The notes under the pieces were generated by a model. It saw nothing but the letters and a program-made list of their open reading frames with translations, had not been told where the DNA came from and searched no databases. Shown here piece after piece: positions 3,082 to 59,598 of a stretch of DNA of 64,000 nucleotides; position 1 is the first letter of the stretch, and each line of letters starts with the position of its first letter. The stretch comes from Maridesulfovibrio sp. (GTDB lineage: Bacteria; Desulfobacterota; Desulfovibrionia; Desulfovibrionales; Desulfovibrionaceae). A program made the position numbers and the translations under genes. The DNA is taken from NCBI RefSeq assembly GCF_963678865.1, contig NZ_OY787459.1, forward strand, positions 1,702,501 to 1,766,500. The letters run 5' to 3'.

Positions 3082-3151
3082 TTTTACTCTCCATTTTAAT
3101 ATGCTTGCCTCCCGGACCGCAGGCACGGTCCAGGAGAATATTTATGTTAAT

Positions 3152-5425
3152 CTATTTAATCTTAAGGCGTACTGTTTCCGCAGCCTGAACCATATTTTTC
3201 AGGGCCGGAATAACCTCATCCCACTTGCGGGTCTTAAGTCCGCAATCCGGGTTTACCCAGAGCCTTTCCGCAGGGATGACTTCAAGCGCCTTTTCGAGCA
3301 GCAGAGCCATGTCGTCTGCTGCCGGAATTGCCGGGCTATGGATGTCATACACTCCGGGGCCGACCTCATTGGGATAGTGAAACTGCTTGAAGCTACCCAA
3401 AAGCTCCATACGGCTGCGGCTGGCTTCAATACTGATTACGTCGGCATCAAGCGCTGCAATTGACCCCATGATTTCGTCGAATTCGCAATAGCACATGTGG
3501 GTATGAATCTGGGTCGCATCATCCACGCAGGATGAAGAAAGACGAAAACACTCCTCTGCCCACTTCAGATATTCAGCCTGCTCCGACTTACGCAGGGGCA
3601 GACCTTCACGCAGGGCCGGTTCGTCAATCTGGATTACTTTCACCCCGCTCTTTTCAAGATCAGCCACCTCGTCACGGACAGCCAGTGCAATCTGGCGGCA
3701 GGTTTCACTGCGCGGCTGGTCATCACGGACAAAACTCCAACAAAGAATGGTCACCGGACCGGTGAGCATGCCCTTGACCTCACGCTCGGAAAGGGAACGG
3801 GCATAGTTGATCCACTCCACGGTAATGGGGCCGGGACGGGAAACATCCCCAAAAATGACCGGAGGCTTCACACAGCGGGAACCGTAACTCTGCACCCAGC
3901 CATTGGAAGTGAAGCAGTAACCGTCAAAATTCTCCCCGAAATACTCAACCATGTCGTTGCGTTCTGGTTCACCGTGGACCAGCACATCAAGACCGATCTC
4001 TTCCTGACGGCGGATGCAATCTTCAATGTAGCCGCGCATGAATTTTTCGTAATCAGCACGTTCAATGCGTCCGCTTTTAAATCCGCTTCTGGTGGAGCGC
4101 ACTTCCGAAGTCTGGGGAAAGGAACCTATGGTGGTTGTTGGCAGCAGGGGGAACCCAAGACTGCGCTGTATCTCTGCCCGTTGCTCATAAGCGGACTTGC
4201 GGTGGTAATCTTCAGGTTTCAACGCAGCCAATCTCTTGGCGACCTCGGGATTGTTCACCTTAGGACTGACTTTGCGGCTTTCAAGAATCCTGCGGTTCTC
4301 CATGAGTGCTTCTTCGACATCCTGACCGGAAACAGCATCAGCCACGGTTCTGACTTCCGCGCATTTCTGACGGGCAAAAGCCATCCAGCTTTTGATTTCC
4401 GCATCCAATTCTGTCTCCAGATCAAGATCAAAGGGGACATGCAGAAGTGAACAGGACGGAGCAACAAAAATCCGGTCCTCGCCAAGGGCAATGGCGGCTT
4501 TGTTCACAGCTGAAACGGCTTTATCAAGATCCGCACGCCAAATATTCCTGCCGTCCACTACGCCGAGGGAAAGACTCATGTTCCCGGCAATTTTTGCAAG
4601 CAAGGGTTCAAGATCCTGTCCGCCGCGCACAAGGTCCACATGCAACGCATCGACAGGCAAGGCGGCAACCGTTTCGAGATTCTCACCCAGCCCGCCAAAA
4701 TAGGAAGCAACCATAACCTTGGTACTTGCAGCCGCTTCCTTGAAAGTGCGGTAAACCGGTGCAAAGAGCCTGCGTACATTTTCGTCAAGATCAAGAGCCA
4801 GTACAGGCTCATCAAATTGAATCCATTCGCACTTGGCTGAAAGTTTTTCAATAAGTTCCACATAAACCGGGAGCAACCCTTCCAGCAGGTCCAAGCGGTC
4901 AAATTCCTGATCCGCACATTTACCGAGCAGTAGAAAAGTCAATGGTCCCGGCAGCACCGCCTTGATTCTGTGATCCTGCGAAGCCGCCTCATCCACCTGT
5001 TGCAACAGGGATTCATCGGCAAGAAAGAACTTCTGGTCACGACAGAACTCAGGGACAATATAGTGATAGTTTGTATCAAACCACTTGGTCATTTCCATGG
5101 CTGCAACACCGTTTTCCCCGGCTTCGCCACGGGCCATCCTGAAATAATCATCAAGTGATGCATTGCGGCCTGAAATATTATATCTTTTCGGAATAACGCC
5201 GAAGCGCACGGCATTATCAAGCATATGGTCATAGTAGGAAAAATCACCAACCGGAAGAATGTCCACTCCGGCTTTCTTCTGGTCTTGCCAGTGCAACGCG
5301 CGCAGTTTTTTGGCAGTCAGGGAAAGATCGTCCCTGCCGGCATCGCCTTTCCAGTAGGATTCCAGTTTCTTCTTTAATTCACGGTTACTACCCATTCTGG
5401 GATAACCCAAGGTGTGCGTCAGCAT
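3152..5425 (-). CDS. metE: Cobalamin-independent methionine synthase
   Basis: MetE transfers the methyl group from 5-methyl-THF (polyglutamate) to homocysteine without vitamin B12. The 757-residue product has the family's two halves: N-terminal MLTHTLGYPRMG and C-terminal catalytic barrel with TTTIGSFPQT, VHGEPERNDMVEYF, the zinc ligands in HTHMCYCEF and the late VNPDCGLKTR cysteine. The start at 5425 follows GGAGAAG; the frame stays open upstream only because it runs through the riboswitch leader. It is the first gene of a metE-metF unit. Repression by B12 is expected, letting a B12-dependent MetH take over when cobalamin is plentiful. Confidence 0.97.
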   Translation of the reverse strand: MLTHTLGYPRMGSNRELKKKLESYWKGDAGRDDLSLTAKKLRALHWQDQKKAGVDILPVGDFSYYDHMLDNAVRFGVIPKRYNISGRNASLDDYFRMARGEAGENGVAAMEMTKWFDTNYHYIVPEFCRDQKFFLADESLLQQVDEAASQDHRIKAVLPGPLTFLLLGKCADQEFDRLDLLEGLLPVYVELIEKLSAKCEWIQFDEPVLALDLDENVRRLFAPVYRTFKEAAASTKVMVASYFGGLGENLETVAALPVDALHVDLVRGGQDLEPLLAKIAGNMSLSLGVVDGRNIWRADLDKAVSAVNKAAIALGEDRIFVAPSCSLLHVPFDLDLETELDAEIKSWMAFARQKCAEVRTVADAVSGQDVEEALMENRRILESRKVSPKVNNPEVAKRLAALKPEDYHRKSAYEQRAEIQRSLGFPLLPTTTIGSFPQTSEVRSTRSGFKSGRIERADYEKFMRGYIEDCIRRQEEIGLDVLVHGEPERNDMVEYFGENFDGYCFTSNGWVQSYGSRCVKPPVIFGDVSRPGPITVEWINYARSLSEREVKGMLTGPVTILCWSFVRDDQPRSETCRQIALAVRDEVADLEKSGVKVIQIDEPALREGLPLRKSEQAEYLKWAEECFRLSSSCVDDATQIHTHMCYCEFDEIMGSIAALDADVISIEASRSRMELLGSFKQFHYPNEVGPGVYDIHSPAIPAADDMALLLEKALEVIPAERLWVNPDCGLKTRKWDEVIPALKNMVQAAETVRLKIK

Positions 5426-5460
5426 TATACTTCTCCATGTTTGCAGTGTCCGCTTTCTGC

Positions 5461-5477
5461 GGCGGGATGTGCCATCC
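5461..5477 (-). promoter_or_regulatory. Hairpin between riboswitch and metE, possible expression platform
   Basis: Between the aptamer and the metE ribosome site lies GGGATG-GCA-CATCCC, followed by a second weak hairpin (CCGC...GCGG) just before GGAGAAG. No T run follows, so B12 control may act on translation or through an alternative fold. This role is inferred from position only. Confidence 0.4.
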
Positions 5478-5517
5478 CTTTTTTCCGTACCTGTTCGCGA
5501 GGTCCGGCCACTAATTT

Positions 5518-5668
5518 CTGCAGGACGTCTTCTGGCTTCCGGGTCTCTTGGACGCACAGCATCAGATCTTCCCGTTAAGATAACAGTGGGCTGATACCAT
5601 TTCGATTGAATTACCCGGTTACAGCAGCGCGCCTGCGACGGATTTTCACCGTCTTCCGTTTCCTGCAG
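5518..5668 (-). promoter_or_regulatory. Cobalamin (adenosylcobalamin) riboswitch controlling metE-metF
   Basis: Read on the minus strand, this leader has the conserved landmarks of the cobalamin aptamer in order. These are a closing P1 stem CTGCAGG/CCTGCAG, the GACGGTGAAAATCCGTCGC block, GCTGCTGTAACCGG, the B12-box-like CAGCCCACTGTTA, then GGGAAGA and GAAGCCAGAAGAC. It ends about 90 bases before the metE ATG. Such switches repress the B12-independent synthase when cobalamin is present, which fits the downstream genes. Confidence 0.9.
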
Positions 5669-5844
5669 ATTTTCACAACTCAAGTTCAATATATAAAAAT
5701 ATTGTTATATAGTGATAAACAAATGACACTCTTCATCATCGAAGTCAAGCGCTAATGCAAACTTGATTAATCCAAATGAAACAAAACCCGGCAAGCGGAA
5801 AAGACTGAACCTGCTTGTTCTGAGAACATAGGCAAACGCACAAA

Positions 5845-5896
5845 ACAAAAAAACCGGAACCAGCGTATATCTAAATACGCTTAGTTCCGGCTTTTA
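5845..5896 (-). terminator. Terminator downstream of DUF4136 lipoprotein gene
   Basis: A two-part stem (CCGGAAC/GTTCCGG enclosing GCGTAT/ATACGC) is followed on the minus strand by a T run. It lies 110 bases after the DUF4136 stop and insulates the metE leader. The rest of the roughly 340 bases from 5669 to 6009 holds only the presumed metE promoter and no gene. Confidence 0.8.
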
Positions 5897-6009
5897 TTTC
5901 AGCAATGCCACAGTTGGTGCTTTATCGGCACCTGAAGCTGTGAGATAAAACTCAGAGCTGTAGATAAACAGCCAAACAGTCCGAAAGGTCTTTCCTCGAC
6001 TTGTTGGGA

Positions 6010-6582
6010 CTATTCGCAATCATTCACATTAAATTTTTCACGGAAACTGCCGTTGGCAGAAGGAAACTTAATCAAAGCTCCCTTAACCAGACAACGCCCG
6101 ACAACATCCAGTCCTTCGCGATCCTGGCTTACTGCCATTCCCCGCCAGAGGAAAGTTTTCATACCCTCGGATTCAGGGGTCATCAGATAGATGCGTACGG
6201 TATTGTCGACGCGGGGGGCATCAGCATCCTTGACCACACCGATTTCGGAATTGGTTTTGCTGATGTAATCATATTCATAGGCTTCCCTTTTGTAGGTAAC
6301 GCCTCTTTCCATAAAAGCTTTGGAGCCGAAATTGACCAGCACGACAAAATCAGGAGAAGCAGGATCATAACGGAAGCCCTTGGACTCCAGCTCAAGTTTG
6401 GCGGAGTTCAGAAGGATAGCTTCAAGATCCTTCTTTGATTCACTTTTCTGCTTGAAAGCAAAAGTTTTAAGCTTGCTGAAATCAGTCCCCTCAACGGGCT
6501 TGTTTTCAACATCCATATTCACATAAACACACCCGGAAAGCATCATCCCGAGCAAAGCAAAGACAACTAGTAACTTCCTCAC
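6010..6582 (-). CDS. DUF4136-type lipoprotein
   Basis: A 190-residue lipoprotein. MRKLLVVFALLGMMLSGC is a classic type II signal ending in the lipobox LSGC. The mature part has the DUF4136 hallmarks: an early DFSKLKTFAF segment (the short strand after a D-[FY] motif), a paired helix with AILLNSAKLELESKGFRY, and PDFVVLVNFGSK. The family is widespread in Gram-negatives and of unknown function, presumably periplasmic or outer-membrane facing. It stands alone, with its own terminator downstream. Confidence 0.85.
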   Translation of the reverse strand: MRKLLVVFALLGMMLSGCVYVNMDVENKPVEGTDFSKLKTFAFKQKSESKKDLEAILLNSAKLELESKGFRYDPASPDFVVLVNFGSKAFMERGVTYKREAYEYDYISKTNSEIGVVKDADAPRVDNTVRIYLMTPESEGMKTFLWRGMAVSQDREGLDVVGRCLVKGALIKFPSANGSFREKFNVNDCE

Positions 6583-6781
6583 CTCAATCTCCTGACTTTA
6601 TATGTTACGGCTTCCCCTGAAAAAACAGCCGTATTAAAATTTTTATTACAATTTCCTATAGCTTAAGCATTTAACTTTTTTAGCCGCTTTAGCCAAGAGT
6701 TAAAACAAATTCAACTACGGAAAAAATAATTCACTTGAATTAAATTCGATCATAGTGTCCTCTACCCATGGGGAGGTACTT

Positions 6782-7132
6782 ATGAATACACTATCAGACA
6801 GGCGTAAACATCCTCGTATTGAGCTTAGCTCAATCAACAATTTTTTCCGGCAATGTGATATTGCAGCGTCATCTGCAACAGGCGACTTTGATATTACCAT
6901 ACTGAATATTTCCACTGACGGTATGAAGTTCACCCTTAATTCCGGGAACGATACAGGAAAACTGCAACAGAATGACGAAATTTTTATCCGTGGATGTATT
7001 TTCAATAACAATATAGGCTTTCTGAGCAGCCAGAAAGCAGTGGCCGTCTGGCAGGAAGACAAGCTTTTCGGGGTAAAATTTACTCCGGCCCTTGATCTTG
7101 ATGAAACAAGCCTTACTGCTATGATGAAGTAA
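6782..7132 (+). CDS. PilZ-domain protein
   Basis: A 116-residue single-domain protein. The start at 6782 is set by GGGGAGG five bases upstream; an in-frame ATG nine codons earlier has no site. The N-terminus has DRRKHPRIEL, the RxxxR motif that binds cyclic di-GMP in PilZ domains, and ILNISTDGMKF is the matching (D/N)xSxxG motif. It probably acts as a c-di-GMP effector; a diguanylate cyclase homologue lies in the same window at 57-59.6 kb. The target cannot be read from the neighbours. Confidence 0.85.
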   Translation: MNTLSDRRKHPRIELSSINNFFRQCDIAASSATGDFDITILNISTDGMKFTLNSGNDTGKLQQNDEIFIRGCIFNNNIGFLSSQKAVAVWQEDKLFGVKFTPALDLDETSLTAMMK

Positions 7133-8342: not shown

Positions 8343-9506
8343 TCAAACTTTCAACCTCTCCAGCCCCTGAGCTAGATCAGCCTTTAAATCTTCAACATCT
8401 TCCAGCCCGATATTGAGGCGGAATATGGTTTTGCCCTCGTAACCGAAAGGATTTGTGCGCCGGAATTTTCCTCCGGTAATCAAACTCTTATAACCTCCCC
8501 AGCTGTAACCGAGACCGAAGAGGGCCAGATTATCCACAAATAGAGAATGATCAATATTCTCGTACTCTTCCTTGAGAGTGAAAGCAAAAAGGCCGCTCGA
8601 ACCATTATAATACTTTTTCCAAAGCTCATGCTGGGGGTGACTTTCGAGAGCCGGATGGATGACCGATTCTACCATGTCATGCTTTTCAAGCCACTTGGCA
8701 ACCTCAAGAGCGGACTCTTCATGCGCCTTCAGCCGAACCTTCAGAGTCCGTAAACCGCGCAACCCTTGATAGCAATCTTCCTGCGCTGCATATACTTCAA
8801 AAAGACCGCAACACTTGTTAAAAGCCGCCCAGCTCTGTTCATTTGTGGAAACCGTGCCCAGCAGGATATCCGAATGCCCGGTTATATACTTGGTGCAGGA
8901 CTGGATGGATACATCCACACCGTGCTTAAAAGGATTGAAATACAAAGGGGTAGCCCATGTGTTATCAATTACCGAAACAACTCCTTTTGCACGGCATTCT
9001 GCTGTAATGGCAGAGATATCCTGAATCTCAAAAGTGTTGGATCCGGGGGATTCCATAAAAAGCAGCTTTGTGTTTTCGCGAATATATCCGGCAATCCCCA
9101 CGCCTGCGTCAGAAGATAAATATTCTGTTTCAACACCGTATTTTGCGAGAAAGCCATCACAGAAACGACGTGTCGGGCCATATACATTATCACAAATCAG
9201 GATATGGTCTCCCTGTTTTGTATAAGCCATAAGGACCATAGCGATTGCGGCAATTCCGGACTGAAATGCCCTGCAGCCGTGCGCCCCTTCCAGCTCCAAC
9301 ATGGCGACTTCAAAAGCCTTCTGTGCGCTTAGTCCGCAGGTTCCGTATTCTATGCCCTCAAACTCACCCTTATTCGCTTTCAGCATATCGGAATAGGAAT
9401 CAAAAATAACCGTGGAAGCCCGGTGCAGGGGAGGATTAATGGTATTTATAATTTGCAGCGCCTCAGCTTTACCTGCATTGACCAGCCTGGTGGAAATATC
9501 TTTCAT
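8343..9506 (-). CDS. metC: Cystathionine beta-lyase
   Basis: A PLP enzyme of the Cys/Met metabolism family, splitting cystathionine to homocysteine, pyruvate and ammonia. The 387-residue product begins MKDISTRLVNAG, right after AAGGAG; the frame's extra 23 upstream codons are part of the leader. The PLP-binding lysine is K206 in SIQSCTKYITGHSD, with DNTWATP before it. SPGSNTFEIQD, SGLFAF and the late YSWGGYKSL and RLNIGLEDVEDL segments follow the E. coli MetC pattern rather than MetB or MetZ. Together with metE and metF nearby, it completes the homocysteine-to-methionine steps. Confidence 0.88.
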   Translation of the reverse strand: MKDISTRLVNAGKAEALQIINTINPPLHRASTVIFDSYSDMLKANKGEFEGIEYGTCGLSAQKAFEVAMLELEGAHGCRAFQSGIAAIAMVLMAYTKQGDHILICDNVYGPTRRFCDGFLAKYGVETEYLSSDAGVGIAGYIRENTKLLFMESPGSNTFEIQDISAITAECRAKGVVSVIDNTWATPLYFNPFKHGVDVSIQSCTKYITGHSDILLGTVSTNEQSWAAFNKCCGLFEVYAAQEDCYQGLRGLRTLKVRLKAHEESALEVAKWLEKHDMVESVIHPALESHPQHELWKKYYNGSSGLFAFTLKEEYENIDHSLFVDNLALFGLGYSWGGYKSLITGGKFRRTNPFGYEGKTIFRLNIGLEDVEDLKADLAQGLERLKV

Positions 9507-9539
9507 GGGAACTCCTTGTTGTTTCTGGCCCAAAATATA

Positions 9540-9577
9540 AAACGGGGAACTGGAAAAACAACCAGTTCCCCGCAATT
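9540..9577 (-). terminator. Terminator after aroB
   Basis: The stem CGGGGAACTGG / CCAGTTCCCCG is followed on the minus strand by TTTTATATTTT. It separates the aroB operon from metC, which is read in the same direction. Confidence 0.82.
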
Positions 9578-9699
9578 TTTAATATTTATTCAGACAATTC
9601 CAATGGCGATGCGGCCATGCCCTGACAAAACCAGAGAATCTCCTGCTAAAGATCCTCCGGCTTTAGGAAAGGCCGTCGGTAAAACCACCGGTAAATTTC

Positions 9700-10788
9700 T
9701 TATTGCATTTTCTCAAGCTCCGCTTCAATCAACTCAAGCGGAAAATCCTCACGCACAACAGCTTTGCCCAACATATCAAGACCGACAATGACCACCGCAC
9801 CATGTTTGACCTTCTTGTCTTTCTTCATGAGTTCCATGATTCGGGCAGGCTCGATATTGAGTTTGCCGGTGGCAAGACCGAGCTTGTCCATGAGCTTCTC
9901 ATGAAACTCAAGGTCCCCGGCAGATAGCATTCCTGCTTTATGACAGGCCCGGGCCACGATACGCATACCCCAGCCGACGCACTCGCCATGGGAAATCTTG
10001 TACCCTGCAAAAGTCTCAATGGCATGGCCCACAGTGTGACCATAATTGAGAATACGGCGCACCCCGCCTTCCTTTTCGTCACGGATCACAACATCGGCCT
10101 TGATCTCACAGCATCTGGCCACGACTTTAGCCATGACATCGCTATCTAACCCCCGGACCTTTTCCGCATTGGCGGACAGGTATTCCACCAGATCACGGTC
10201 AGCGATAAATGCTGTCTTGACTACTTCGCCAAGCCCGCTGAGAATTTCCCGTTCAGGCAGAGAGTTAAGGGCTGAAATATTGGTATAAACCCGCTTGGGC
10301 TGGTAGAACATACCGCAATAATTCTTCCAGTGCCGGATATTCACCGCCACCTTTCCGCCAACAGAAGAATCCACCTGTGAAAGCAGAGTAGTTGGCACCT
10401 GCACGAAATTAATCCCGCGCATATAGCTCCCGGCAACATAACCGGAGAGATCACCGACTACGCCACCTCCAAGGGCGACGACTACATCCTGACGGGTAAT
10501 CCCTGCCTCAAGCATGGCTTCAAGCAACGATCCGAACACATCAAGCGATTTGCTGTTCTCCCCTGCTGGGACTGTCAGCAGCAGGGGGTCAACATCCGCA
10601 AGCGCAAGCTTTTCGACCAGATCATGGCCGAAAAGCTCGCGGGTATTTTCATCGCAGATAACTACCGGGGTATATCCGTATTTCCGTGTTTTAAGATCCG
10701 CTACAACTTCATCCATGACGGAGTAGCCCACGCTGATCTCATAGGAATTATCGAACTCCCCGCGCAGTTCAACTTTGACCTTCGGCAT
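9700..10788 (-). CDS. aroB: 3-Dehydroquinate synthase
   Basis: AroB is the NAD- and metal-dependent second step of the shikimate pathway, DAHP to 3-dehydroquinate. The 362-residue product shows VPAGENSKS, the glycine-rich ALGGGVVGDLSGYVA, the active-site QVPTTLLSQVDSSVGGKVAVN, and the metal ligands in NYGHTVGHAIE and SHGECVGWGM. The start codon at 10788 shares one base with the stop of the upstream DAHP synthase gene (TAATG), so translation is probably coupled. A terminator lies 120 bases downstream. Confidence 0.95.
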   Translation of the reverse strand: MPKVKVELRGEFDNSYEISVGYSVMDEVVADLKTRKYGYTPVVICDENTRELFGHDLVEKLALADVDPLLLTVPAGENSKSLDVFGSLLEAMLEAGITRQDVVVALGGGVVGDLSGYVAGSYMRGINFVQVPTTLLSQVDSSVGGKVAVNIRHWKNYCGMFYQPKRVYTNISALNSLPEREILSGLGEVVKTAFIADRDLVEYLSANAEKVRGLDSDVMAKVVARCCEIKADVVIRDEKEGGVRRILNYGHTVGHAIETFAGYKISHGECVGWGMRIVARACHKAGMLSAGDLEFHEKLMDKLGLATGKLNIEPARIMELMKKDKKVKHGAVVIVGLDMLGKAVVREDFPLELIEAELEKMQ

Positions 10789-11879
10789 TAATCTTCCCCG
10801 GCCAGCACGCATTCCTGCTGACGCAGGGATTCTTCGTGGATGTACTGGAATATACGGAGCATGAAGTGCTCATCCATGCCGCGGGCAACCCCTTCACGGG
10901 TACGTTTTTCAACAGTTTTTTTCCACTGAGCAGGCTGCAGGAGAGCGATGCCGCGCTCACATTTCATCTTACCGATCTTGCGGCCAAGAGCCATGCGCTC
11001 GGCAAGAAGCTCAACGATGGCATCATCAATTTCAACAAGACGGGTGCGTTTGCTTTCCATCTTCAGGGCAAATTCTTCATCTTCTGCAACAGCATGCTTA
11101 ACTTCAAGCCCGGCAAGCACTTTACCGAGATCTTCGGGTGTGAACTGCTGTTTGCTGTCACTAAGAGCTACATCCGGATTGATGTGGGATTCAATCATCA
11201 GGCCGTCAAAAAGAAGGTCAAGGGACTTCTGGGCCACAGCAGGAATCAATTCACGCTTGCCGCAAAGATGGCTGGGGTCACAGATGATAGGCATGCCTTC
11301 AGTACGGCGGCGCAGTTCAATAAAAATTCTCCAGTTGGGAGCGTTACGGTATTCACTGGGGCGGGCGGAAGAAAAACCGCGATGAATGGCACCGAGTTTC
11401 TTGACCCCGGCTTTGTTGATACGCTCCAGAGCACCAAGCCAGAGCTCCACGTCAGGGTTGATGGGGTTCTTGACCAGTACCGGGATATCGGTCCCCTGCA
11501 AGGCATCGGCCATGGCCTGTACAGCAAAGGGGTTTACTGTGGTTCTTGCACCGATCCAGATCAAATCCACACCGTACTTAAGGCAGAGTTCGATGTGTTC
11601 GGGGGTGGCTGTTTCACAGCAGATAGGCAGACCGGTTTCCTCTTTTGCTTCAACCAGCCATTTAAGACCTTCCTCGCCCATTCCCTCAAAACATCCTGGA
11701 CGGGTACGGGGTTTCCAGATTCCGGCGCGCAGGAGGTGAACACCCTTATCTTGAATTCCTCGCGCGGTTTCAAGAAGCTGCTCACGGGACTCGGCACTGC
11801 AAGGTCCGGCAATAATCAATGGTCCGTCGTTATTGAATCCCCAAGAATCCAAACCGGTTACATCAAGTTGTACGCTCAT
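10788..11879 (-). CDS. Bifunctional DAHP synthase / chorismate mutase (type II)
   Basis: A 363-residue fusion. Residues 1-265 form a KDO8P-like (type I beta) DAHP synthase with IAGPCSAES, RAGIWKPRTRP, WIGARTTVNP, LVKNPINPD, GAIHRGFSS and ICDPSHLCGKRE, joining PEP and erythrose-4-phosphate. The last 90 residues are an AroQ-type chorismate mutase helix bundle (RLVEIDDAIVELLAERMALG...IGKMK). Fusing first-step synthase to mutase usually lets prephenate or an aromatic end product feed back on the synthase. GGAGG precedes the ATG. It is the first gene of a two-gene operon with aroB. Confidence 0.93.
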   Translation of the reverse strand: MSVQLDVTGLDSWGFNNDGPLIIAGPCSAESREQLLETARGIQDKGVHLLRAGIWKPRTRPGCFEGMGEEGLKWLVEAKEETGLPICCETATPEHIELCLKYGVDLIWIGARTTVNPFAVQAMADALQGTDIPVLVKNPINPDVELWLGALERINKAGVKKLGAIHRGFSSARPSEYRNAPNWRIFIELRRRTEGMPIICDPSHLCGKRELIPAVAQKSLDLLFDGLMIESHINPDVALSDSKQQFTPEDLGKVLAGLEVKHAVAEDEEFALKMESKRTRLVEIDDAIVELLAERMALGRKIGKMKCERGIALLQPAQWKKTVEKRTREGVARGMDEHFMLRIFQYIHEESLRQQECVLAGED

Positions 11880-51467: not shown

Positions 51468-53900
51468 TTATTGCATAGCTGATCTTTTGGACAAATCTTC
51501 ATACATGGTCCAGGTCTTTAGAAATTCAGCATCAAAAGATCGTTGTTCAGTGTAGGTCCGCGCACTCTTTTTCATGTACTGCAACAGCTCTGGGTGGTCG
51601 GCAAGGCGGACAATTGCTCTGCTTAGCGCGTCTGAATTTCCGGCTTCTACGATCAGCCCGGTAGTATCCTTAATAAGATTTTCGCAGGGCCCTCCGCAAT
51701 CAGTGACGATTACCGGAAGACCTGAAGCTTGGGCTTCCAGAACCACATTGCCGAAGGTATCGGTTGCGGAAGGAAATACAAAGACATCGGAACTGGCATA
51801 GCAGGAAGAGAGTTCTTCCCCGTCCAGATAGCCTGTGAACGTCACCGGGCACCCTTCCAGACGAAGTTTCATTTCATCAAGATATGGGCCTTCACCGACC
51901 ACGACAAGATGCAATTCCGGCCTGATGGCGGACACTGTCTTAAAGGCTTCGGTCAGCACATCAAGATTCTTTTCACGGGACACACGGCCCACATAGAGCA
52001 ATTTGACCGCTTCCTTGACTTTGAAGCGCTTGCTATAAAAACCATTGCGTTTCTCAGGAGTAAAGCGGCTGGTATCCACTCCACGGGGATAGACTTTGAT
52101 TTTGTGCGGCTTGACGCCTTTACCGGACAACTCGTCCCCGGTCGCTTCGGAAGGGACGAAAACCGTATCCATCTGGTTGTAAAACCAGATCATAAATTTC
52201 CATGAGATATCTTCCAGCCCGGTATCATCCGTGAAGGCCCGGACATACTGCGGAAAGGCCGTATGGTATGTTCCATGAACAGGAAGCTTGAGAAGGCGGG
52301 CTACAGCCAGCCCTGCCAGACCGACCGGGCCTGGAGTCGCCAGATGCAACAAAGTGTAATCGCTTTCCAGACAGTGGGCCAGCACTCGCAGAAACGGCGG
52401 GTATTTGAACGACAGTTCCGGATATTCGGGAAACTCAAATTCTCCGGCAGGGGAAAAATTTACTACCTGATCACTGGATCCTTCGGAACCGCAGGTAATT
52501 ACAGTAAGCTTTTTATCATGCTTACGGGCAACATCCAACTGACTTTGCAGTGTTAAGGCCACACCGTTCACGTCACTGAATGTATCGGTAAAATGGGCAA
52601 TTTTAGTTTCACCTGCATGCAGGTCCTTATGCCCGAAAGCGTACAGACAGTCCCGTGCAAATTCCCGTTCACTGGCAAAGAGTCCATATGAGACAAAATA
52701 AGGAGCAAGCAGAGTATACAGGGATCCGGCCGCACCGATGGTATGGAATACATCAAAAAGATTCGCACCCAAAGCGCTGTTGATAATTTTATCTCCCAAA
52801 CCGGAGAGGACTTTATCAGTAGCATTACCCACAAAACGAAACCATTCATCTTCCAGCTCTTCAGGACTGTATTTGAAACCGCAGCTTATATTACGGGCAC
52901 GGTCTTCACTTTCCACAATACGGTTGGCTTCCCGCAACAAGGCCGCCTGAACTGAATCAGAAGTCCTGAAATATTTTTTAGAGCGCTGACGGTAGATAAA
53001 ATTCTGAAGCTTATCCAGAATGGAAGGACTTACCTTGTCGCCGGGATCAAGCACATTGTCGATATATCCGAAGCATTCAACAGAACGTTTCAGCTTGGTA
53101 CAATCAAAATGGCTTTTGTAAAACTGGTAGGCAATTCCATAAAGATTATGGGCCATGGTATGCGGAGTAGCCGCCTTTCCCTGAACCATGCACCGCCCTT
53201 CGCTGACAGCTCCAAGCATTTCCTGCGGGGTCATGACATCAACAAACTCAGTATAAACCCTCGCGATATTGATACCGGAATGGTCATCTGATCCACCGGT
53301 CAGGCCCTTGACCCATGGGGTGTTACCGTAAGGCGCAATATCGTGCTTATTTGCAAGGCTGTCGATAATTTCAGGAGTCAGGTTGTCAACGATGGTACGC
53401 AGGGCCGAGTTCTGCATTTCATCACGGGTACCGTTCAGCTCGAGGGTATTGAAAAGCAGCAGGGCTTTTTCAAAATGCTCCGGGGTCAGTCGCTCATTGA
53501 CTGCGAAAAGAGGATGAGCCAGCACATGAACAATGCCCTGCTCTCGCAGATAAGGAACAAGGTCAAATACATTGTCGCGCAACTTCTGGAACTCGCGGTG
53601 GTGTTCTTCGGTGATATCATAAGCCAGAACGTGTAGCTTACAGCCGTCTTCCGGGAAATATGTCGTAATTTCTTCGCTGATGAACGCGTTTTTAAGATGG
53701 GCTATTTCCAGACTGCCGTTAATCGTGTTGTGATCGGTAATGGTGACCATGTTCATGGACCGTGCAAAAGCCCTGTCATAAATCTTCAACGGCTCGGTAA
53801 AGCTCTCCGGGCACCCCAGCTTCTGCAGAATCCACTGGGATGGGCGGGTTGAATATTTTGAGTGTACATGCAGGTCCACCCTCACATTAGAACCTTTCAT
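51468..53900 (-). CDS. PHP metallo-phosphoesterase domain fused to GT4 glycosyltransferase
   Basis: An 810-residue cytosolic protein. Residues ~1-260 form a PHP domain with metal-ligand motifs DLHVHSKYS, TITDHNTI, VLAHPLF and GGSDDHSG. A helical linker of about 150 residues follows. Residues ~420-800 are a GT4 (GT-B) glycosyltransferase: FTDTFSDVNGVALT, YHTAFPQYV, YPRGVDTSRF, LLYVGRVSREKNLDVL, and the donor-site PSATDTFGNVVLEAQASGLPVI. Linking a phosphoesterase to a sugar transferase suggests one lipid or polysaccharide step. AGGAGG precedes the ATG. It is downstream of the purL terminator. Confidence 0.9.
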   Translation of the reverse strand: MKGSNVRVDLHVHSKYSTRPSQWILQKLGCPESFTEPLKIYDRAFARSMNMVTITDHNTINGSLEIAHLKNAFISEEITTYFPEDGCKLHVLAYDITEEHHREFQKLRDNVFDLVPYLREQGIVHVLAHPLFAVNERLTPEHFEKALLLFNTLELNGTRDEMQNSALRTIVDNLTPEIIDSLANKHDIAPYGNTPWVKGLTGGSDDHSGINIARVYTEFVDVMTPQEMLGAVSEGRCMVQGKAATPHTMAHNLYGIAYQFYKSHFDCTKLKRSVECFGYIDNVLDPGDKVSPSILDKLQNFIYRQRSKKYFRTSDSVQAALLREANRIVESEDRARNISCGFKYSPEELEDEWFRFVGNATDKVLSGLGDKIINSALGANLFDVFHTIGAAGSLYTLLAPYFVSYGLFASEREFARDCLYAFGHKDLHAGETKIAHFTDTFSDVNGVALTLQSQLDVARKHDKKLTVITCGSEGSSDQVVNFSPAGEFEFPEYPELSFKYPPFLRVLAHCLESDYTLLHLATPGPVGLAGLAVARLLKLPVHGTYHTAFPQYVRAFTDDTGLEDISWKFMIWFYNQMDTVFVPSEATGDELSGKGVKPHKIKVYPRGVDTSRFTPEKRNGFYSKRFKVKEAVKLLYVGRVSREKNLDVLTEAFKTVSAIRPELHLVVVGEGPYLDEMKLRLEGCPVTFTGYLDGEELSSCYASSDVFVFPSATDTFGNVVLEAQASGLPVIVTDCGGPCENLIKDTTGLIVEAGNSDALSRAIVRLADHPELLQYMKKSARTYTEQRSFDAEFLKTWTMYEDLSKRSAMQ

Positions 53901-54032
53901 GGCTTAATCCTCCTGAAATTCACGCCTTGGCTGCATAAAGACGTGCAATTGATTTTCGCCCTTTTAATAAGAGCAGGAGGCTGTAACAGTCCCACGGTTC
54001 GGTTACGGTTCAGAGTTATTTCAGAGAAAACG

Positions 54033-54070
54033 AAAAAAGGCCGCAACTCTCAAGAGATGCGGCCTTTTGA
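54033..54070 (-). terminator. Terminator after purL
   Basis: The stem AAAAGGCCGCA / TGCGGCCTTTT with a CTCTC/GAGA inner pair is followed on the minus strand by a T run (TTTTTTCG). Confidence 0.85.
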
Positions 54071-54093: not shown

Positions 54094-57072
54094 CTACCAG
54101 TTCAAGGTTTCCTTAAAAGCTGTGGCGAGATCTTCGGTCTTGCAGCGGACGATGCCTGCAGAGCCTTCCATGAGGCCGAAGGAGCTTCCGCCAACGGTCA
54201 TACCGATGCGCTTGCAGATCTGGCCTGCGAAGAGCTCTTCGAACTTACCGGCATTCTCGGGAGCCACGGTCACCGCGAAACGGGATGCGGACTCACTGTA
54301 AAGCACGGACAGAGTCGACATGCCGTACTCGGTAGGTACGGAACGAAGGTCGACTTCACAACCGATACGTCCGCCAAGGGACATCTCGGCAAGGGCCACA
54401 CCCAGACCGCCGTCGGAAAGGTCGTGGCAGGAAGTTACCAGCCTCTGACGCATGGCCTGATTAAGGGTCATGTAGCGGGCCTTGGCTGTGAGAGCCTCAA
54501 CATGAGGCACTTTGTCATGCACGAAGTTCAGCTGGGAGGCGATTTCAGAACCGCCCATTTCGTCACGGGTCATACCGAGCACGTAGATGAATTCACCCGG
54601 CTTCTTGAAATCGGAAGTCACGCACATGTTGATGTCCGGAACAATACCGACGGTGGAGAAGAGTACAGTCGGCGGGATGGATATTTTCACGCCGCCGCCT
54701 TTGTAGTCGTTCTTCATGGAGTCCTTACCGGAAATGCAGGGAACTCCGAAAGCACGGCAGAAGTGGGACAGGGCCTGATTAGCCCGGACCAGCTGCGCCA
54801 GTTTGTAATGACCGTCCGGGCTAGATTCGGACTGAACAGGGTCGCACCAGCAGAAGTTATCGATACCGGCCATGTGGGTGATATCTCCACCTACGGCAAC
54901 TGCGTTACGAATTGCTTCGTCAACGGCGTTAGCCATCATCCAGTATGTATCGAGATCAGAGAATTTGGGGCAGATACCGTGCGAAACGACCAGACCTTTG
55001 TCATCGTCAAAGTCGGGACGAAGCACACCGGCATCAGCAGGACCGTCCTCCTGCTCACCGACCAGAGGCTTGACCACACTGCGGCCCTGCACTTCATGGT
55101 CATACTGGCGGATGACATACTCCTTGCTGCAAATATTCAGACGCCCAAGCATATCCTTGAGCAGCGCTGTGTGGTCTGCAACTTCGGGTTCTCCGGTAAA
55201 TTCGATTTCAGGACGTTCCCAGACAGCCTTGAGCTGCATCTGGGGAACACCGTCATGAAGGAAGTCCATGCGCAGGCAGGCTACTGGCTTTTCTCCGTAG
55301 CGGATGTTGTAGAGGCCGCTGTCAGTATAAGTACCGAGGGCAGTAGCTTCCACGTCCATTTCATCCGCAAGGGCCATGAACTCGTCCAGTTTTTCAGGCG
55401 GGACAGCTATGGTCATTCTTTCCTGAGCTTCGGAAACGAGGATTTCCCATGGTTTGAGACCGTCATATTTGAGCGGTGCCTTGGCAAGGTCAAGATCACA
55501 ACCGCCGCTGTCCTCGGCCATTTCACCGACAGAGGAAGACAAGCCGCCCGCACCGTTATCGGTGATGGCGTTGTACAGGCCCAAGTCACGGGCACGCATC
55601 AGGCAGTCATACATCTTGCGCTGGGTAATCGGGTCACCGATCTGAACAGCTGTTGCCGGAGAACCTTCATGCAGTTCCTCGGAGGAAAAAGTCGCGCCGT
55701 GAATACCGTCTTTACCGATACGGCCACCGGTCATGACAATGATATCGCCGGGCAGGGCTTTCTTTTGGTGGCTGGGACGTCCTGCAGCTTCCACAGGCAT
55801 GGTCCCCACGGTACCACAGTAAACCAGCGGCTTGCCGAGATAACGTTCATCAAAAACAATAGACCCGTTCACTGTGGGAATACCGGATTTGTTACCGCCA
55901 TGCTCCACACCTTCGCGTACACCTTCGAACACCCGGCGGGGATGCAGCAGACGCGGGGGCAATTCACCTTCATGAAAGGGTGACGCAAAACAGAACACGT
56001 CTGTGTTACAGAGCAGGTTCGCGCCCAGCCCGGTACCCATGGGGTCACGGTTGACGCCTACAATACCGGTCAACGCTCCACCGTAAGGATCGAGCGCAGA
56101 GGGACTGTTGTGGGTCTCCATTTTAACGCAGACATTAAGCTTGTCATTGAACTTGATAACACCGGCATTATCTTTGAACACGGAAAGGCAGAAATCATCG
56201 TCGCCCTTTTCAGCGCGGATTTCCTTGGTGGTGTTCATGATGCAGGTTTTGTAAAGGCTGTCTACAGTAGAGGAAAACCCGGTTTCCTTATTTTCATAAG
56301 AAATCTTAGAGCTGAAAATCTTATGCTTGCAGTGTTCGGACCATGTCTGGGCCAGAGCTTCGAGTTCCGCATCAGTAGGCTGGGCGGTAAGTCCCATTTC
56401 CTCACGCTGCTTAACTACTTCAGGGTCGGCATAGTATCTACGGATGCAGTGGAATTCCTCAAGACTCAGGGCAAGGGTGTTCTCACGGCTGAAAGCCATC
56501 ATTTCGTCATCGGACATAGCCGCGAGGTCGATAACTGCAACTTCGTCACTGGCTTTACCGGTAACCCGTGCTGCCTTGGCTTCGAATCCCGGAGACTTCA
56601 CCCATTCCTCTGCGGAACGGATTTCGTAACGCTGGATAAGTTCGTTAGCCAGCAGGTCCTTTGCTATATGGCTGACCTGCTCCAGACCGAGATCCTTATC
56701 AAAAAGATACTGGGTGGAAGTATAGACTTTTACCGCTTCCACAGCTGCCGGTTCAGTAACCAGAATTACTGATTCCTTGGCAGTACGGCCTTCGTTGTCG
56801 GTAACGCCGGGACGGAAGCCCACTTCAAGGTTCCATGCGAAATCCTTGGCCAGCGGCTCAAGGGAAGGTGTATGCAGGACCGGGTCATGAAGTACGCCCA
56901 GTTCCAAAACCTTTTCAATTTCGTCTTTCTCAAGACCTTCAACAGTATATACCTTGATGGTCCGGACATCACCGGCCTCAATACCTAATTCTTCTTTGAT
57001 CTTATTGGAAACTTTATGGCCGTGAACATCACGGACATGGTCTTTAAGTGCGACCTCGACACGCCAGAGCAT
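54094..57072 (-). CDS. purL: Phosphoribosylformylglycinamidine synthase, PurS-PurL fusion
   Basis: A 992-residue enzyme of purine synthesis (FGAR + ATP + ammonia to FGAM). Residues ~1-190 carry a PurS-like part. The rest is PurL, with EALAQTWSEHCKHKIF, KMETHNSPSALDPYGGALTGIVGVNRD, GGRIGKDGIHGATFSS, ITDNGAGGLSSSVGEMAE and SCHDLSDGGLGVALAEM. It ends without the glutaminase domain that completes the ~1290-residue E. coli enzyme, so a separate PurQ must supply ammonia. It is the last gene of the 62.7-54 kb run. GAGGAG precedes the ATG. Confidence 0.95.
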   Translation of the reverse strand: MLWRVEVALKDHVRDVHGHKVSNKIKEELGIEAGDVRTIKVYTVEGLEKDEIEKVLELGVLHDPVLHTPSLEPLAKDFAWNLEVGFRPGVTDNEGRTAKESVILVTEPAAVEAVKVYTSTQYLFDKDLGLEQVSHIAKDLLANELIQRYEIRSAEEWVKSPGFEAKAARVTGKASDEVAVIDLAAMSDDEMMAFSRENTLALSLEEFHCIRRYYADPEVVKQREEMGLTAQPTDAELEALAQTWSEHCKHKIFSSKISYENKETGFSSTVDSLYKTCIMNTTKEIRAEKGDDDFCLSVFKDNAGVIKFNDKLNVCVKMETHNSPSALDPYGGALTGIVGVNRDPMGTGLGANLLCNTDVFCFASPFHEGELPPRLLHPRRVFEGVREGVEHGGNKSGIPTVNGSIVFDERYLGKPLVYCGTVGTMPVEAAGRPSHQKKALPGDIIVMTGGRIGKDGIHGATFSSEELHEGSPATAVQIGDPITQRKMYDCLMRARDLGLYNAITDNGAGGLSSSVGEMAEDSGGCDLDLAKAPLKYDGLKPWEILVSEAQERMTIAVPPEKLDEFMALADEMDVEATALGTYTDSGLYNIRYGEKPVACLRMDFLHDGVPQMQLKAVWERPEIEFTGEPEVADHTALLKDMLGRLNICSKEYVIRQYDHEVQGRSVVKPLVGEQEDGPADAGVLRPDFDDDKGLVVSHGICPKFSDLDTYWMMANAVDEAIRNAVAVGGDITHMAGIDNFCWCDPVQSESSPDGHYKLAQLVRANQALSHFCRAFGVPCISGKDSMKNDYKGGGVKISIPPTVLFSTVGIVPDINMCVTSDFKKPGEFIYVLGMTRDEMGGSEIASQLNFVHDKVPHVEALTAKARYMTLNQAMRQRLVTSCHDLSDGGLGVALAEMSLGGRIGCEVDLRSVPTEYGMSTLSVLYSESASRFAVTVAPENAGKFEELFAGQICKRIGMTVGGSSFGLMEGSAGIVRCKTEDLATAFKETLNW

Positions 57073-57105: not shown

Positions 57106-59598
57106 TTATTCGGCCCAGACCAGTACATTTCCGCCCAAATTTTTGGCTTCATAGGTCGCTTTATCAGCGCGGTTCAGCATGACATCGGAAGTATCACCTT
57201 CCTTGAGCACTGTTAGCCCACCGCTGATGGTGACCTTGCCGGAAAATTTTTTCTCCACCCGAAGCCTGATCCTGTTGCCGATCTTTTCAAGAGTCTCGGC
57301 ACGTACTTCAGTCACAATAATACCGAACTCATCCCCCCCGTAACGGCAAGGGAAATCCATTCCGGACCTGAGTTCATTACGCAAAATATCGCCGACGCCC
57401 CTAAGCACCTCATCACCGACCTGATGGCCCTCAGTATCATTTACTGTCTTGAAGCCGTCCAGATCAAAAAAAAGCAGGCCCACAGGACGTCCGGTCCGCT
57501 TGCTGCGATTGATTTCACGGGCCAGCAGAGTATTGAACTGGGTATGGTTGAAAAGGTCAGTCAAGCCGTCAAACACTGCCTGCCGTTTAAGCCTGTCCTC
57601 AAGCCTGCGGATGGCGGTAAGATCACGGGCTACGATCAGACTCTTTTCGCCCGGTCCAGCCAATTTACTGATTACAAACTCAAAAGGACGCCCGGATGTC
57701 TCAGTCCTTTTCAAAAGAACTTCAACCACGGTTTTCTCCCGCCCAAACATATCCGGTCCCCAATGGCCGGTATAGGTTTCACTGGGGCTGGCGATTTCAA
57801 AAATATTCCGCCCAAGAAAAATCTTGGAAAAACGGGATGATGCATAGGTAATATGTCCCCGTTTATCCACGGTGAGCACCACATCGCGCATGGAATCAAC
57901 CAGTCCCTCAAGAAAATCTCGTTGTTTGAGAGCCTGAATCTGACTCTCGGACATTTCCCGGATATCCTCCATGACTACCGAAACCAGCTTTTCTCCGCCA
58001 CGTTCCTGTTTATAGGCTGAGACATAAAGGCAGGCATCACGGGGCATGCCTCCCGTACGCAGGCTGACACAAACAATCTTACTGAAAGATTTTCGGGACT
58101 CATCACTGAGAAAAGCAGCCCAGCTTGCTCCCATCCCGGAACCGAGCCCCAGCTTAAAAAGTTCGTTAAAATTCTTTGTACCTGAAATGGATGCACCGCC
58201 CAACAGCCGGACCATCTCTTCGTTCATGTCAATGAGATCGCCCTGCGAGTCCAGACTGGCAACACCTAAAGGCAAGGTTTCGAGAATTTCTGCCCGGTCC
58301 TCAAGAAGATGCTGTTTAGCGCAGTAATGTTCATAGGCCTGGCCTATGAACCGGAAATAAAGCTTTAAGCTTTTGCGGTCTGCTGCGGGCAGGAGTTTGG
58401 GGTCAAAACGAAATCTGCCGAACAGGACATTTCTGCTGAAAATATCCTCAGCATTACCGCTGCCGCGGCGCTGCCATGGTATTTCATCCATAGGGCAATT
58501 GCTGACTACAACCTCCAGGTCTTCTCCGTCTGCAACCCGGTAAAATCTGTATTTATCAGTATGCGGAGACTTCAGGGCCAGTTCCCAGCCGGTAATATCC
58601 CAGCTGAGTTTCAGATGCCTGCCGATGATCCGGGCGATAGAGTCGACACCACCTTCAGCTGTGAGCAGCTCAAGACTCAGGAAATAGCTGGATTGCAGAC
58701 TCTTAATGGAATAATTGTAAAAATGGGCATCGCCTCCACTTTCGGATATACCCAATATTTTGAGCATTGACTGAAACTTTGTCCTGCAGACTTCGCGGAA
58801 TCCTTCAATCGCCTCTTCATCCATATCAAGAGAGCGTTGCAGTTGTACCTCAAACTGGAGAACATTAAATGGAGTGGTGCTGTTGCCCAGTTCCATTTCA
58901 GCCCATCTTGTTGCCAGAATCATGGCCTGAGTGGGAGAATCAAAAGAGTCAATTTCATCAAGGGCATGATGATGCTGCAAAGCCGGGCAATCGAGATTGT
59001 TCATCTTCCACCGGGTCAGCAGCAGTTGACTGAGCGCGCCGTGGTTCATTCCCCAGATATCATTTTCAGCTTCAGTCTGTCCGGGACTGGAACGGGTAAC
59101 CGAATCTTTTGAAATTTCATCAGGAAGTTCCCCGGGGGCGGCGCACCGCAAAAAAAGCAGAGAAATATCTTTCAGCAGACAGCAAAGGTATACCTTATCC
59201 GCCTGCTCAGGACATATACGGGAAGCTATAAGTTGGGCCGAAATTGCCCCCCAGACTGTCAGCATCCAATCATGATAAACCTTGTAGTCATCGTTTTGCA
59301 GATTAGCACAGATATGCTTCTGATAGGTTACTGTGACCGCCAGATTAAGCAGTTCACGGGTCCCCAGTACAACAGCAGCCCGCTTGAAATCCGTAATCTC
59401 CTGCGAAAGGCCGTAAAAAGGGGAATTAACAAGATTAAGAATTGTGGTGGAAAGAGCCGGGTCCATGCTGATAATTTTTCCCAGCACAGCGAAATCAGGT
59501 TCCGGCTTGCAGGCTTCCTCCATGAGTTGGAGCATGACCGGAGGAAAGCTGAGTTTCATCATCAATCGTGGTGATTCAAGAACATCATCCAGACTCAT
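57106..59598 (-). CDS. HDOD-PAS-GGDEF signalling protein
   Basis: An 830-residue cytosolic protein. An N-terminal HDOD domain (~15-215) has FPPVMLQLMEEAC, MDPALSTTILNLVNSPFYG and FKRAAVVLGTRELLNLAV. One or two PAS domains (~450-650) follow (LPLGVASLDSQGDLIDMNEEMVRLLG; DVVLTVDKRGHITYASSRF). A C-terminal GGDEF domain (~670-830) has DGLTDLFNHTQF, FFDLDGFKTVND and the intact RYGGDEFGI. It is probably an active diguanylate cyclase; the RxxD product-inhibition site reads SGMD and lacks the Arg. The gene lies between the prenyl synthase and purL with gaps of about 30 bases. Confidence 0.9.
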   Translation of the reverse strand: MSLDDVLESPRLMMKLSFPPVMLQLMEEACKPEPDFAVLGKIISMDPALSTTILNLVNSPFYGLSQEITDFKRAAVVLGTRELLNLAVTVTYQKHICANLQNDDYKVYHDWMLTVWGAISAQLIASRICPEQADKVYLCCLLKDISLLFLRCAAPGELPDEISKDSVTRSSPGQTEAENDIWGMNHGALSQLLLTRWKMNNLDCPALQHHHALDEIDSFDSPTQAMILATRWAEMELGNSTTPFNVLQFEVQLQRSLDMDEEAIEGFREVCRTKFQSMLKILGISESGGDAHFYNYSIKSLQSSYFLSLELLTAEGGVDSIARIIGRHLKLSWDITGWELALKSPHTDKYRFYRVADGEDLEVVVSNCPMDEIPWQRRGSGNAEDIFSRNVLFGRFRFDPKLLPAADRKSLKLYFRFIGQAYEHYCAKQHLLEDRAEILETLPLGVASLDSQGDLIDMNEEMVRLLGGASISGTKNFNELFKLGLGSGMGASWAAFLSDESRKSFSKIVCVSLRTGGMPRDACLYVSAYKQERGGEKLVSVVMEDIREMSESQIQALKQRDFLEGLVDSMRDVVLTVDKRGHITYASSRFSKIFLGRNIFEIASPSETYTGHWGPDMFGREKTVVEVLLKRTETSGRPFEFVISKLAGPGEKSLIVARDLTAIRRLEDRLKRQAVFDGLTDLFNHTQFNTLLAREINRSKRTGRPVGLLFFDLDGFKTVNDTEGHQVGDEVLRGVGDILRNELRSGMDFPCRYGGDEFGIIVTEVRAETLEKIGNRIRLRVEKKFSGKVTISGGLTVLKEGDTSDVMLNRADKATYEAKNLGGNVLVWAE

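Follow-up and report, generated by a model that had tools for sequence, protein, structure and literature searches.

What does a protein that joins a PHP phosphoesterase and a glycosyltransferase in one chain do for its cell? The question is raised by a gene of Maridesulfovibrio sp. (assembly GCF_963678865.1, contig NZ_OY787459.1, positions 1,702,501 to 1,766,500; these 64,000 nucleotides are the window of this analysis), whose 810-residue product consists of a PHP half, a helical linker and a glycosyltransferase family 4 (GT4) half. We put a probability of roughly 0.6 on the reading that this fusion is a bifunctional enzyme for lipid remodelling under phosphate limitation, a one-chain counterpart of the PlcP-Agt type. 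The original prediction for the locus had suggested a two-step reaction, and two steps remain the best reading. The order favoured here runs opposite to its first example, in which a phosphorylated glycan intermediate is made and then dephosphorylated: the phosphoesterase probably acts first, as in PlcP-Agt.

The gene itself is an exact open reading frame (ORF) in the window's ORF list, with an ATG start and its stop codon included (Table 1). Its strand, about which the original prediction was silent, is the minus strand; the plus strand, read in frame over the same interval, holds many stops. The reading frame is not a product of chance, because orthologues 44-92% identical over nearly the full length occur in the 21 other genomes of a 22-row alignment. 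By fold and motifs, the N-terminal half is a divergent member of the PHP superfamily. Its Pfam scores are sub-threshold (PHP_C, 18.3 of 21.3 bits; PHP, 11.3 of 26.4 bits). The PHP fold is nonetheless clear in the AlphaFold model of residues 1-430, which has a predicted local distance difference test (pLDDT) score of 87.7, against 86.7 for the whole chain. With this model as Foldseek query, each of the first nine rows holds a PHP protein or PHP domain, at probability 1.00. VIA-align gives Z scores of 17.9 to 3e38 (195 residues, 2.8 A), 17.0 to 2anu (189, 2.8 A), 14.8 to 2yb1 (178, 3.1 A) and 14.4 to 7ug9 (181, 3.1 A).

All PHP motifs named in the original prediction are present. The histidines, aspartates and glutamate that we take from PHP structures to be metal ligands are invariant in 22/22 rows of the full alignment and in 26/26 rows of a second alignment, confined to the PHP-linker part and extending to deep branches. 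A degenerate metal site, which the original prediction had named as a refuting result if common among relatives, was seen in none of these rows. PHP enzymes are known with both mono- and diesterase chemistry. RNase AM, 2yb1, PsfC, TM0559 and 3e38 have the fold and the metal-site motifs in common with this half; to our knowledge, neither lipid substrates nor fusion to a glycosyltransferase has been described for any of them, and we know of no lipid-acting member of the PHP superfamily so far.

The C-terminal half is a complete GT4 transferase, as originally predicted, with two Pfam families above their cut-offs (PF13439, 87.8 bits, E 1.1e-24; PF00534, 130.2 bits, E 7.5e-38). Its E/D-x7-E motif has aspartate in first place, as does the catalytic motif of GTcp from SAR11 (PMC8231724). 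Over 365 columns, the whole half, it is 30% identical to Agt2 of Pseudomonas aeruginosa (PA0842), its best characterised match, which differs in being single-domain and encoded after plcH-plcR. The two P. aeruginosa loci were recognised by gene order in a tblastn search of a plasmid collection: a glycosyltransferase after cerN-plcH-plcR as Agt2, and a metallophosphoesterase-glycosyltransferase pair before cyaB as PlcP-Agt1 (PA3219-PA3218), given the PA numbers that we take the flanking genes to have. Monoglycosyldiacylglycerol (MGDG) is the product of Agt1 and glucuronic acid diacylglycerol (GADG) that of Agt2; MGDG and most GADG depend on PlcP (PMC8528852). When Agt2 was searched against 20 hand-chosen carrier genomes, the fusion gene was the best match in 20/20. 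In the window's own genome it reached E 5.5e-45, against 4.2e-12 for the next best, and an Agt1 query found it as best match in 16/20 carriers (E<=1e-20). A 44-row maximum-likelihood tree was built with 16 of the 22 alignment rows, five other GT4 loci of the window's genome, long outgroup branches and one fragment (F_L126_6). In it, 25 fused glycosyltransferases form one clade (97/95), beside a 10-row clade (96/90) with Agt1, Agt2 and unfused relatives and apart from the five other GT4s of the genome; the fusion therefore probably arose once.

This kinship bears on the order of the two steps. In the opposite order, the GT4 half would glycosylate a phosphorylated acceptor (phosphatidate, phosphatidylglycerol (PG)-phosphate or a sugar phosphate) and the PHP half would then dephosphorylate it, as in the sucrose-phosphate synthase and phosphatase pair. 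Fused or paired glycosyltransferase-phosphatase enzymes that work in this order are known, sucrose-phosphate synthase is among both the sequence and the structure matches of the GT half, and the original prediction had itself suggested this order. It is nevertheless unlikely, since Agt1, Agt2 and GTcp, functionally the nearest relatives of the GT half, use unphosphorylated diacylglycerol (PMC8231724, PMC8528852) and PlcP acts upstream of the Agt enzymes.

A genetic view of the product comes from D. alaskensis G20, to whose taxonomic family we take the window to belong. Under phosphate limitation, more than 90% of its phospholipid is replaced by MGDG, GADG and ornithine lipids; a Dde_3613 (agt) mutant is without any glycolipid, and a Dde_3661 (olsF) mutant is without ornithine lipids (PMC5193443). 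There, Dde_3613 is described as homologous to Agt, with more than 50 other species or strains having homologues at E<1e-100, and was published as a plain glycosyltransferase needed for MGDG and GADG under phosphate limitation. It is very likely an orthologue of the PHP-GT4 fusion, because the fusion is the best match of Agt2 in every carrier tested. The GT half has thus probably been characterised already through these mutants, an outcome that the original prediction had allowed for; the PHP half goes unmentioned in the available text of that paper, where PHP, phospholipase, PlcP, phosphoesterase, phosphodiesterase and histidinol each occur 0 times (PMC5193443). Likewise, the two-gene PlcP-Agt system is described in PMC8231724 and PMC4796936, and the words fused and fusion occur in neither text as available. 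No description of a PHP-GT4 fusion was found among the open-licence PMC papers listed by searches for this architecture, which did not extend to subscription papers and preprints.

How the carriers obtain diacylglycerol can be approached through the distribution of the fusion. A search profile built from 22 aligned members was run against whole genomes of the taxonomic family, the class and a phylum sample. It matched 105/206 genomes of the family (E<=1e-100; genomes at least 90% complete), 125/247 genomes of the class (E<=1e-60) and 72/395 genomes of the phylum sample (E<=1e-60). In class and family the matches are mostly one piece over nearly the whole profile, some being truncated or interrupted where a contig ends or a long insert intervenes; the phylum sample also holds GT-only and PHP-only matches. 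Within the window's genus, 11/16 genomes (at least 90% complete) have the fusion, which has therefore been lost or gained at times in what is an old family. A tblastn search of 72,556 plasmid records gave matches to the GT half and no match covering 80% of the fusion protein, and a scan of named genomes with patterns from a single sequence yielded one locus.

Among the 206 family genomes, OlsF accompanies the fusion closely (101/105 carriers vs 23/101 non-carriers; Fisher p 2e-30, for related species). A search for PlcP gave matches in 0/105 carriers and 3/101 non-carriers of the family, and all 3 PlcP matches adjoin OlsF. The one of these three that was examined further, in a genome without the fusion (L208:8005-12399), is an OlsF-PlcP-MGDG_synth (GT28) locus. 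PlcP with an unrelated glycosyltransferase seems to do the same job in PlcP genomes, and the L208 genes would give this bacterial family an alternative cassette for lipids free of phosphorus. Weak PlcP-like matches (E 1.7e-8 to 5.5e-16 vs about 1e-36 for real ones) occur in 5 of 43 carriers from other families and were treated as other calcineurin-like enzymes.

Whether the PHP half does work of its own is best judged where it has parted from the GT catalytic site. Four relatives (L120_10, L121_4, L122_2 and L133_7; Table 1) keep all PHP ligands and have lost the GT donor half. Directly after L133_7, on the same strand and with the ORFs 88 bases apart, lies an Agt1-type glycosyltransferase (50% identity, E 5.4e-101), and the locus of L121_4 also holds a pair of a glycosyltransferase and a PAP2 gene. 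These relatives speak against a GT4 half that works alone, beside a PHP half reduced to a structural or regulatory relic. In favour of a relic, PHP domains of polymerase III are often inactive. Bosak et al. account for the Dde_3613 mutant by the glycosyltransferase alone (PMC5193443). Yet the metal ligands are invariant even in the deep branches and outlive the donor half in four relatives, which makes a relic highly improbable.

The same relatives weigh on a reading in which the PHP half is a nucleotidase. It would degrade the uridine mono- or diphosphate left by the glycosyltransferase, or RNA fragments, and so pull the reaction and recover phosphate, with diacylglycerol coming from elsewhere. 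Such a role would suit phosphate-starved cells, and the fold neighbours include RNase AM and 2yb1, the latter solved with adenosine monophosphate. We consider it fairly unlikely: the PHP half has survived loss of the GT donor half, PlcP is matched in no carrier of the family, and a lipid phosphatase lies close by most of the unfused GT relatives examined. At the loci of five such relatives (L116-L119 and L121), a PAP2-like ORF is close by in 4/5, confirmed by Pfam in L117 and L121, and L116 and L117 have a diacylglycerol kinase. In Acinetobacter baumannii, the closest glycosyltransferase stops 24 bases short of a PAP2 gene. Eight Agt2-like loci were opened in the plasmid collection, and in four of them a phospholipase or lipid phosphatase adjoins the glycosyltransferase (in one by annotation only). 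The pairs in A. baumannii, L117 and L121 thus place the same kind of glycosyltransferase beside a lipid phosphatase, although there the phosphatase is a PAP2 membrane protein encoded by a separate gene.

If the fusion does remodel lipids in one chain, its PHP half would cleave a phospholipid in the manner of a phospholipase C, taking off its phosphorylated head group, or would remove the phosphate from phosphatidate, and in either case would yield diacylglycerol. The GT4 half would then use a UDP-sugar to put glucose or glucuronic acid on this diacylglycerol, and the resulting MGDG and GADG would replace phospholipids under phosphate limitation. The enzyme would be cytosolic and probably membrane-associated, with channelling along the linker. 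We infer the PHP substrate, the order of the steps, the membrane association and the channelling, and the role given to the PHP half is a new prediction. Phospholipase C and phosphatidate phosphatase activity are both possible by analogy, the PlcP partners of Agt enzymes arguing for the former and the PAP2 partners for the latter. The nearest parallel is PlcP-Agt (P. aeruginosa PA3219-PA3218, SAR11, roseobacters), which likewise combines a diacylglycerol-yielding phosphoesterase with a homologous GT4 and is tied to phosphate limitation. There, however, two genes are involved and the phosphoesterase is a calcineurin-like metallophosphoesterase (PF00149/PF12850), whereas the fusion is one chain with a predicted PHP phosphoesterase; the PHP half is therefore not a PlcP, and may work like one.

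The linker was predicted to be helical, and residues 246-421 are so by DSSP of the AlphaFold models. It contains a conserved apolar helix at about residues 378-410, in which P400 is invariant in 22 rows. This helix was considered as a membrane span and rejected as too weakly hydrophobic (best 19-residue hydropathy mean 0.9-1.5 in 22 family members); membrane association of the protein is a guess. It is a little better than an even bet that the PHP half acts as a phospholipase C or a phosphatidate phosphatase, handing diacylglycerol on to the GT4 half by way of the apolar linker, and that lipid remodelling in sulfate-reducing bacteria is driven by this enzyme and not by PlcP.

Gene neighbourhoods add context that the window does not give. 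The original prediction held that context does not show the substrate, which is right for the window's neighbours and does not extend to relatives in other families, whose neighbours point to lipids. The survey covered stretches of up to 20 kb round relatives at 102 loci, including the window and one named locus; the loci were non-random, selected for taxonomic breadth and with deviant members among them. Neighbours were clustered within 4.5 kb, leaving out ORFs that overlap the target by more than 30% and pairs whose alignment spans under half of the longer member, and families were named by Pfam and NCBIfam on representatives. A protein with Acyltransf_2 and Acetyltransf_5 domains (acyltransferase plus GNAT), which we take to be of the OlsF type that makes ornithine lipids, occurs in 21/102 loci. 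Among these 21, 19 have the PHP half, 8 taxonomic families are represented, and 10 have the neighbour codirectional within 350 bases. A phosphatidylserine (PS) decarboxylase lies directly upstream of the fusion in 13/102 loci, and a methyltransferase (Methyltransf_24) still farther upstream, likewise in 13; the two sets have 12 loci in common (the loci with either are L134, L135, L138, L139, L143, L148-L151, L154, L157, L160, L161 and L163). More scattered neighbours, or those in fewer loci, were set aside as evidence: EAL/GGDEF proteins (7 loci), PIN-PhoH (10), radical SAM proteins (8) and ABC ATPases (11). The gene of the radical SAM protein (470 residues) comes after the fusion, in the same orientation, in L055, L056, L131, L141, L142, L146, L147 and L192, within 30 bases or overlapping in 5/8.

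A GpgD-type deacetylase (DUF2334) is near the fusion in 11/102 loci, and a second GT4 in 12/102. These genes would fit an amino-sugar lipid, for example N-acetylglucosaminyl (GlcNAc)-PG that a GpgD-type enzyme later deacetylates, with the PHP half making PG from PG-phosphate or trimming the product. The gpgSDF genes are described in PMC12713373; the GT4 of this glucosaminyl-PG pathway is related to that of the fusion, but the system is without PHP and its product is an amino-sugar lipid. Among curated families, NF053787 (GpgS, the GlcNAc-PG synthase) ranks first for the window protein and for the two other fused members that were scored. The scores, though, are far under the cut-offs (138.3 of 480 bits for the window protein; 89 and 64 of 280 bits for the NF053788-type deacetylases). 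A second GT4 able to do that step is present in 9/11 deacetylase loci, the only such GT4 scored next to a fusion matches GpgS better than the fusion does (205 vs 124 bits), and no deacetylase stands beside the window's gene. An amino-sugar product is therefore very unlikely. In L057 and L058, a DUF2334 deacetylase is upstream of the fusion; downstream, L057:11191-13086 encodes a VTT (DedA-type) membrane domain with a sulfotransferase and has a matching ORF in L058, which suggests a sulfated glycolipid and a flippase.

Several observations weigh against one-chain remodelling to MGDG and GADG. The PHP activity it calls for is a prediction for every PHP half, and the fold matches of this half consist largely of nucleases, polymerase domains and small-phosphate phosphatases. 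Since GpgS is, among curated families, the nearest to the GT half, and deacetylases adjoin some relatives, a glycolipid other than MGDG or GADG is possible. The probable identity of Dde_3613 with the fusion goes through Agt homology, and the co-occurrence counts are non-independent because the carriers are related species. A separate Agt1-like gene beats the fusion as match to Agt1 in two of the carriers queried (G038, G042), no match reaches E 1e-20 in two others (G077, G078), and G038, G042, G046 and G050 have an extra Agt1-like gene without PlcP. No clear replacement Agt1 was found in the genomes of the donor-less relatives L120 and L122 (G323, G456), and no phospholipase or lipid phosphatase lies beside the glycosyltransferase in the other 4/8 Agt2-like plasmid-collection loci. 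In the window, the neighbours of the fusion (purL, groESL and an HDOD-GGDEF-like gene) include no lipid genes. No convincing Pho box precedes the fusion either: in the 87 of 102 upstream regions used, matches with at most 3 mismatches occur in 7/87, vs 7/870 shuffled regions, and the best match upstream of the window's gene has 5 mismatches in a consensus scan. With a small excess over shuffles and nothing in the window, a claim of Pho-box regulation was dropped.

The immediate surroundings of the gene are those of a lone gene behind a purL terminator, much as originally predicted. Upstream on the minus strand is purL (54094-57072), named by eye from its translation, and between the two a hairpin with a T run folds at -21.9 kcal/mol (z -6.0); the hairpin is absent from the list of a consensus terminator scanner. 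From the other side groES-groEL, also named by eye, converge on the fusion gene, which with the terminator makes it look like a single-gene unit. A CCGTAAC...GTTACAG block upstream of the fusion is largely kept within the genus, its second half being absent from L043 and L044; it looks like an operator distinct from a standard Pho box. Further upstream, before purL, 57106-59598 (minus strand) encodes an 830-residue protein with an HDOD-like N-terminus and a GGDEF domain (by eye), a homologue of which keeps the same place in 7/8 genus loci taken.

Table 1. The fusion gene, its parts and its upstream signals in window coordinates, with relatives lacking the GT donor half in coordinates of their own loci.
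Feature	Position	Strand	Basis
PHP-GT4 fusion coding sequence, 810 residues	51468..53900	-	ORF list; orthologues in genome searches
PHP phosphoesterase domain, residues 1-243	53172..53900	-	AlphaFold model, Foldseek, VIA-align
PHP motif I HVHS, residues 11-14 (H11, H13)	53859..53870	-	H11, H13 invariant in 22 and 26 rows
PHP motif II TDHN, residues 55-58 (D56, H57)	53727..53738	-	both invariant in 22 and 26 rows
E77, presumed metal-bridging acid	53670..53672	-	invariant in 22 and 26 rows
H90, presumed metal ligand	53631..53633	-	invariant in 22 and 26 rows
PHP motif AHP, residues 128-130 (H129)	53511..53519	-	A128, H129 invariant in 22 and 26 rows
PHP motif GGSDDHSG, residues 202-209	53274..53297	-	D205, D206, H207 invariant in 22 and 26 rows
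Helical linker, residues 244-430	52611..53171	-	DSSP of models, alignment, hydropathy
GT4 (GT-B) half, residues 431-810	51471..52610	-	Pfam, identity to Agt2, tree
GT4 catalytic D714-x7-E722 (DTFGNVVLE)	51735..51761	-	D714, E722 invariant in 22 rows
Ribosome-binding site AGGAGG	53909..53914	-	read directly
CCGTAAC-N-GTTACAG block, possible operator	53981..54010	-	8-row upstream alignment
Intrinsic purL terminator	54035..54068	-	RNA fold
PHP + linker + GT acceptor half only, about 610 residues, GT catalytic residues lost	L120_10 9358-11187; L121_4 4961-6805; L122_2 3057-4886; L133_7 8975-10825		

In the taxonomic family of the window, where a PlcP match occurs in 3/206 genomes, the source of diacylglycerol for glycolipid synthesis has been in question, and the PHP-GT4 enzyme offers an answer. 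MGDG in anoxic environments has been read as a signal of phosphate limitation (PMC5193443), and knowing the enzyme that makes it, together with its match in 105/206 genomes of the family, would help to interpret that signal. If the proposed activity of the PHP half is true, lipids would join the substrates of the PHP superfamily.

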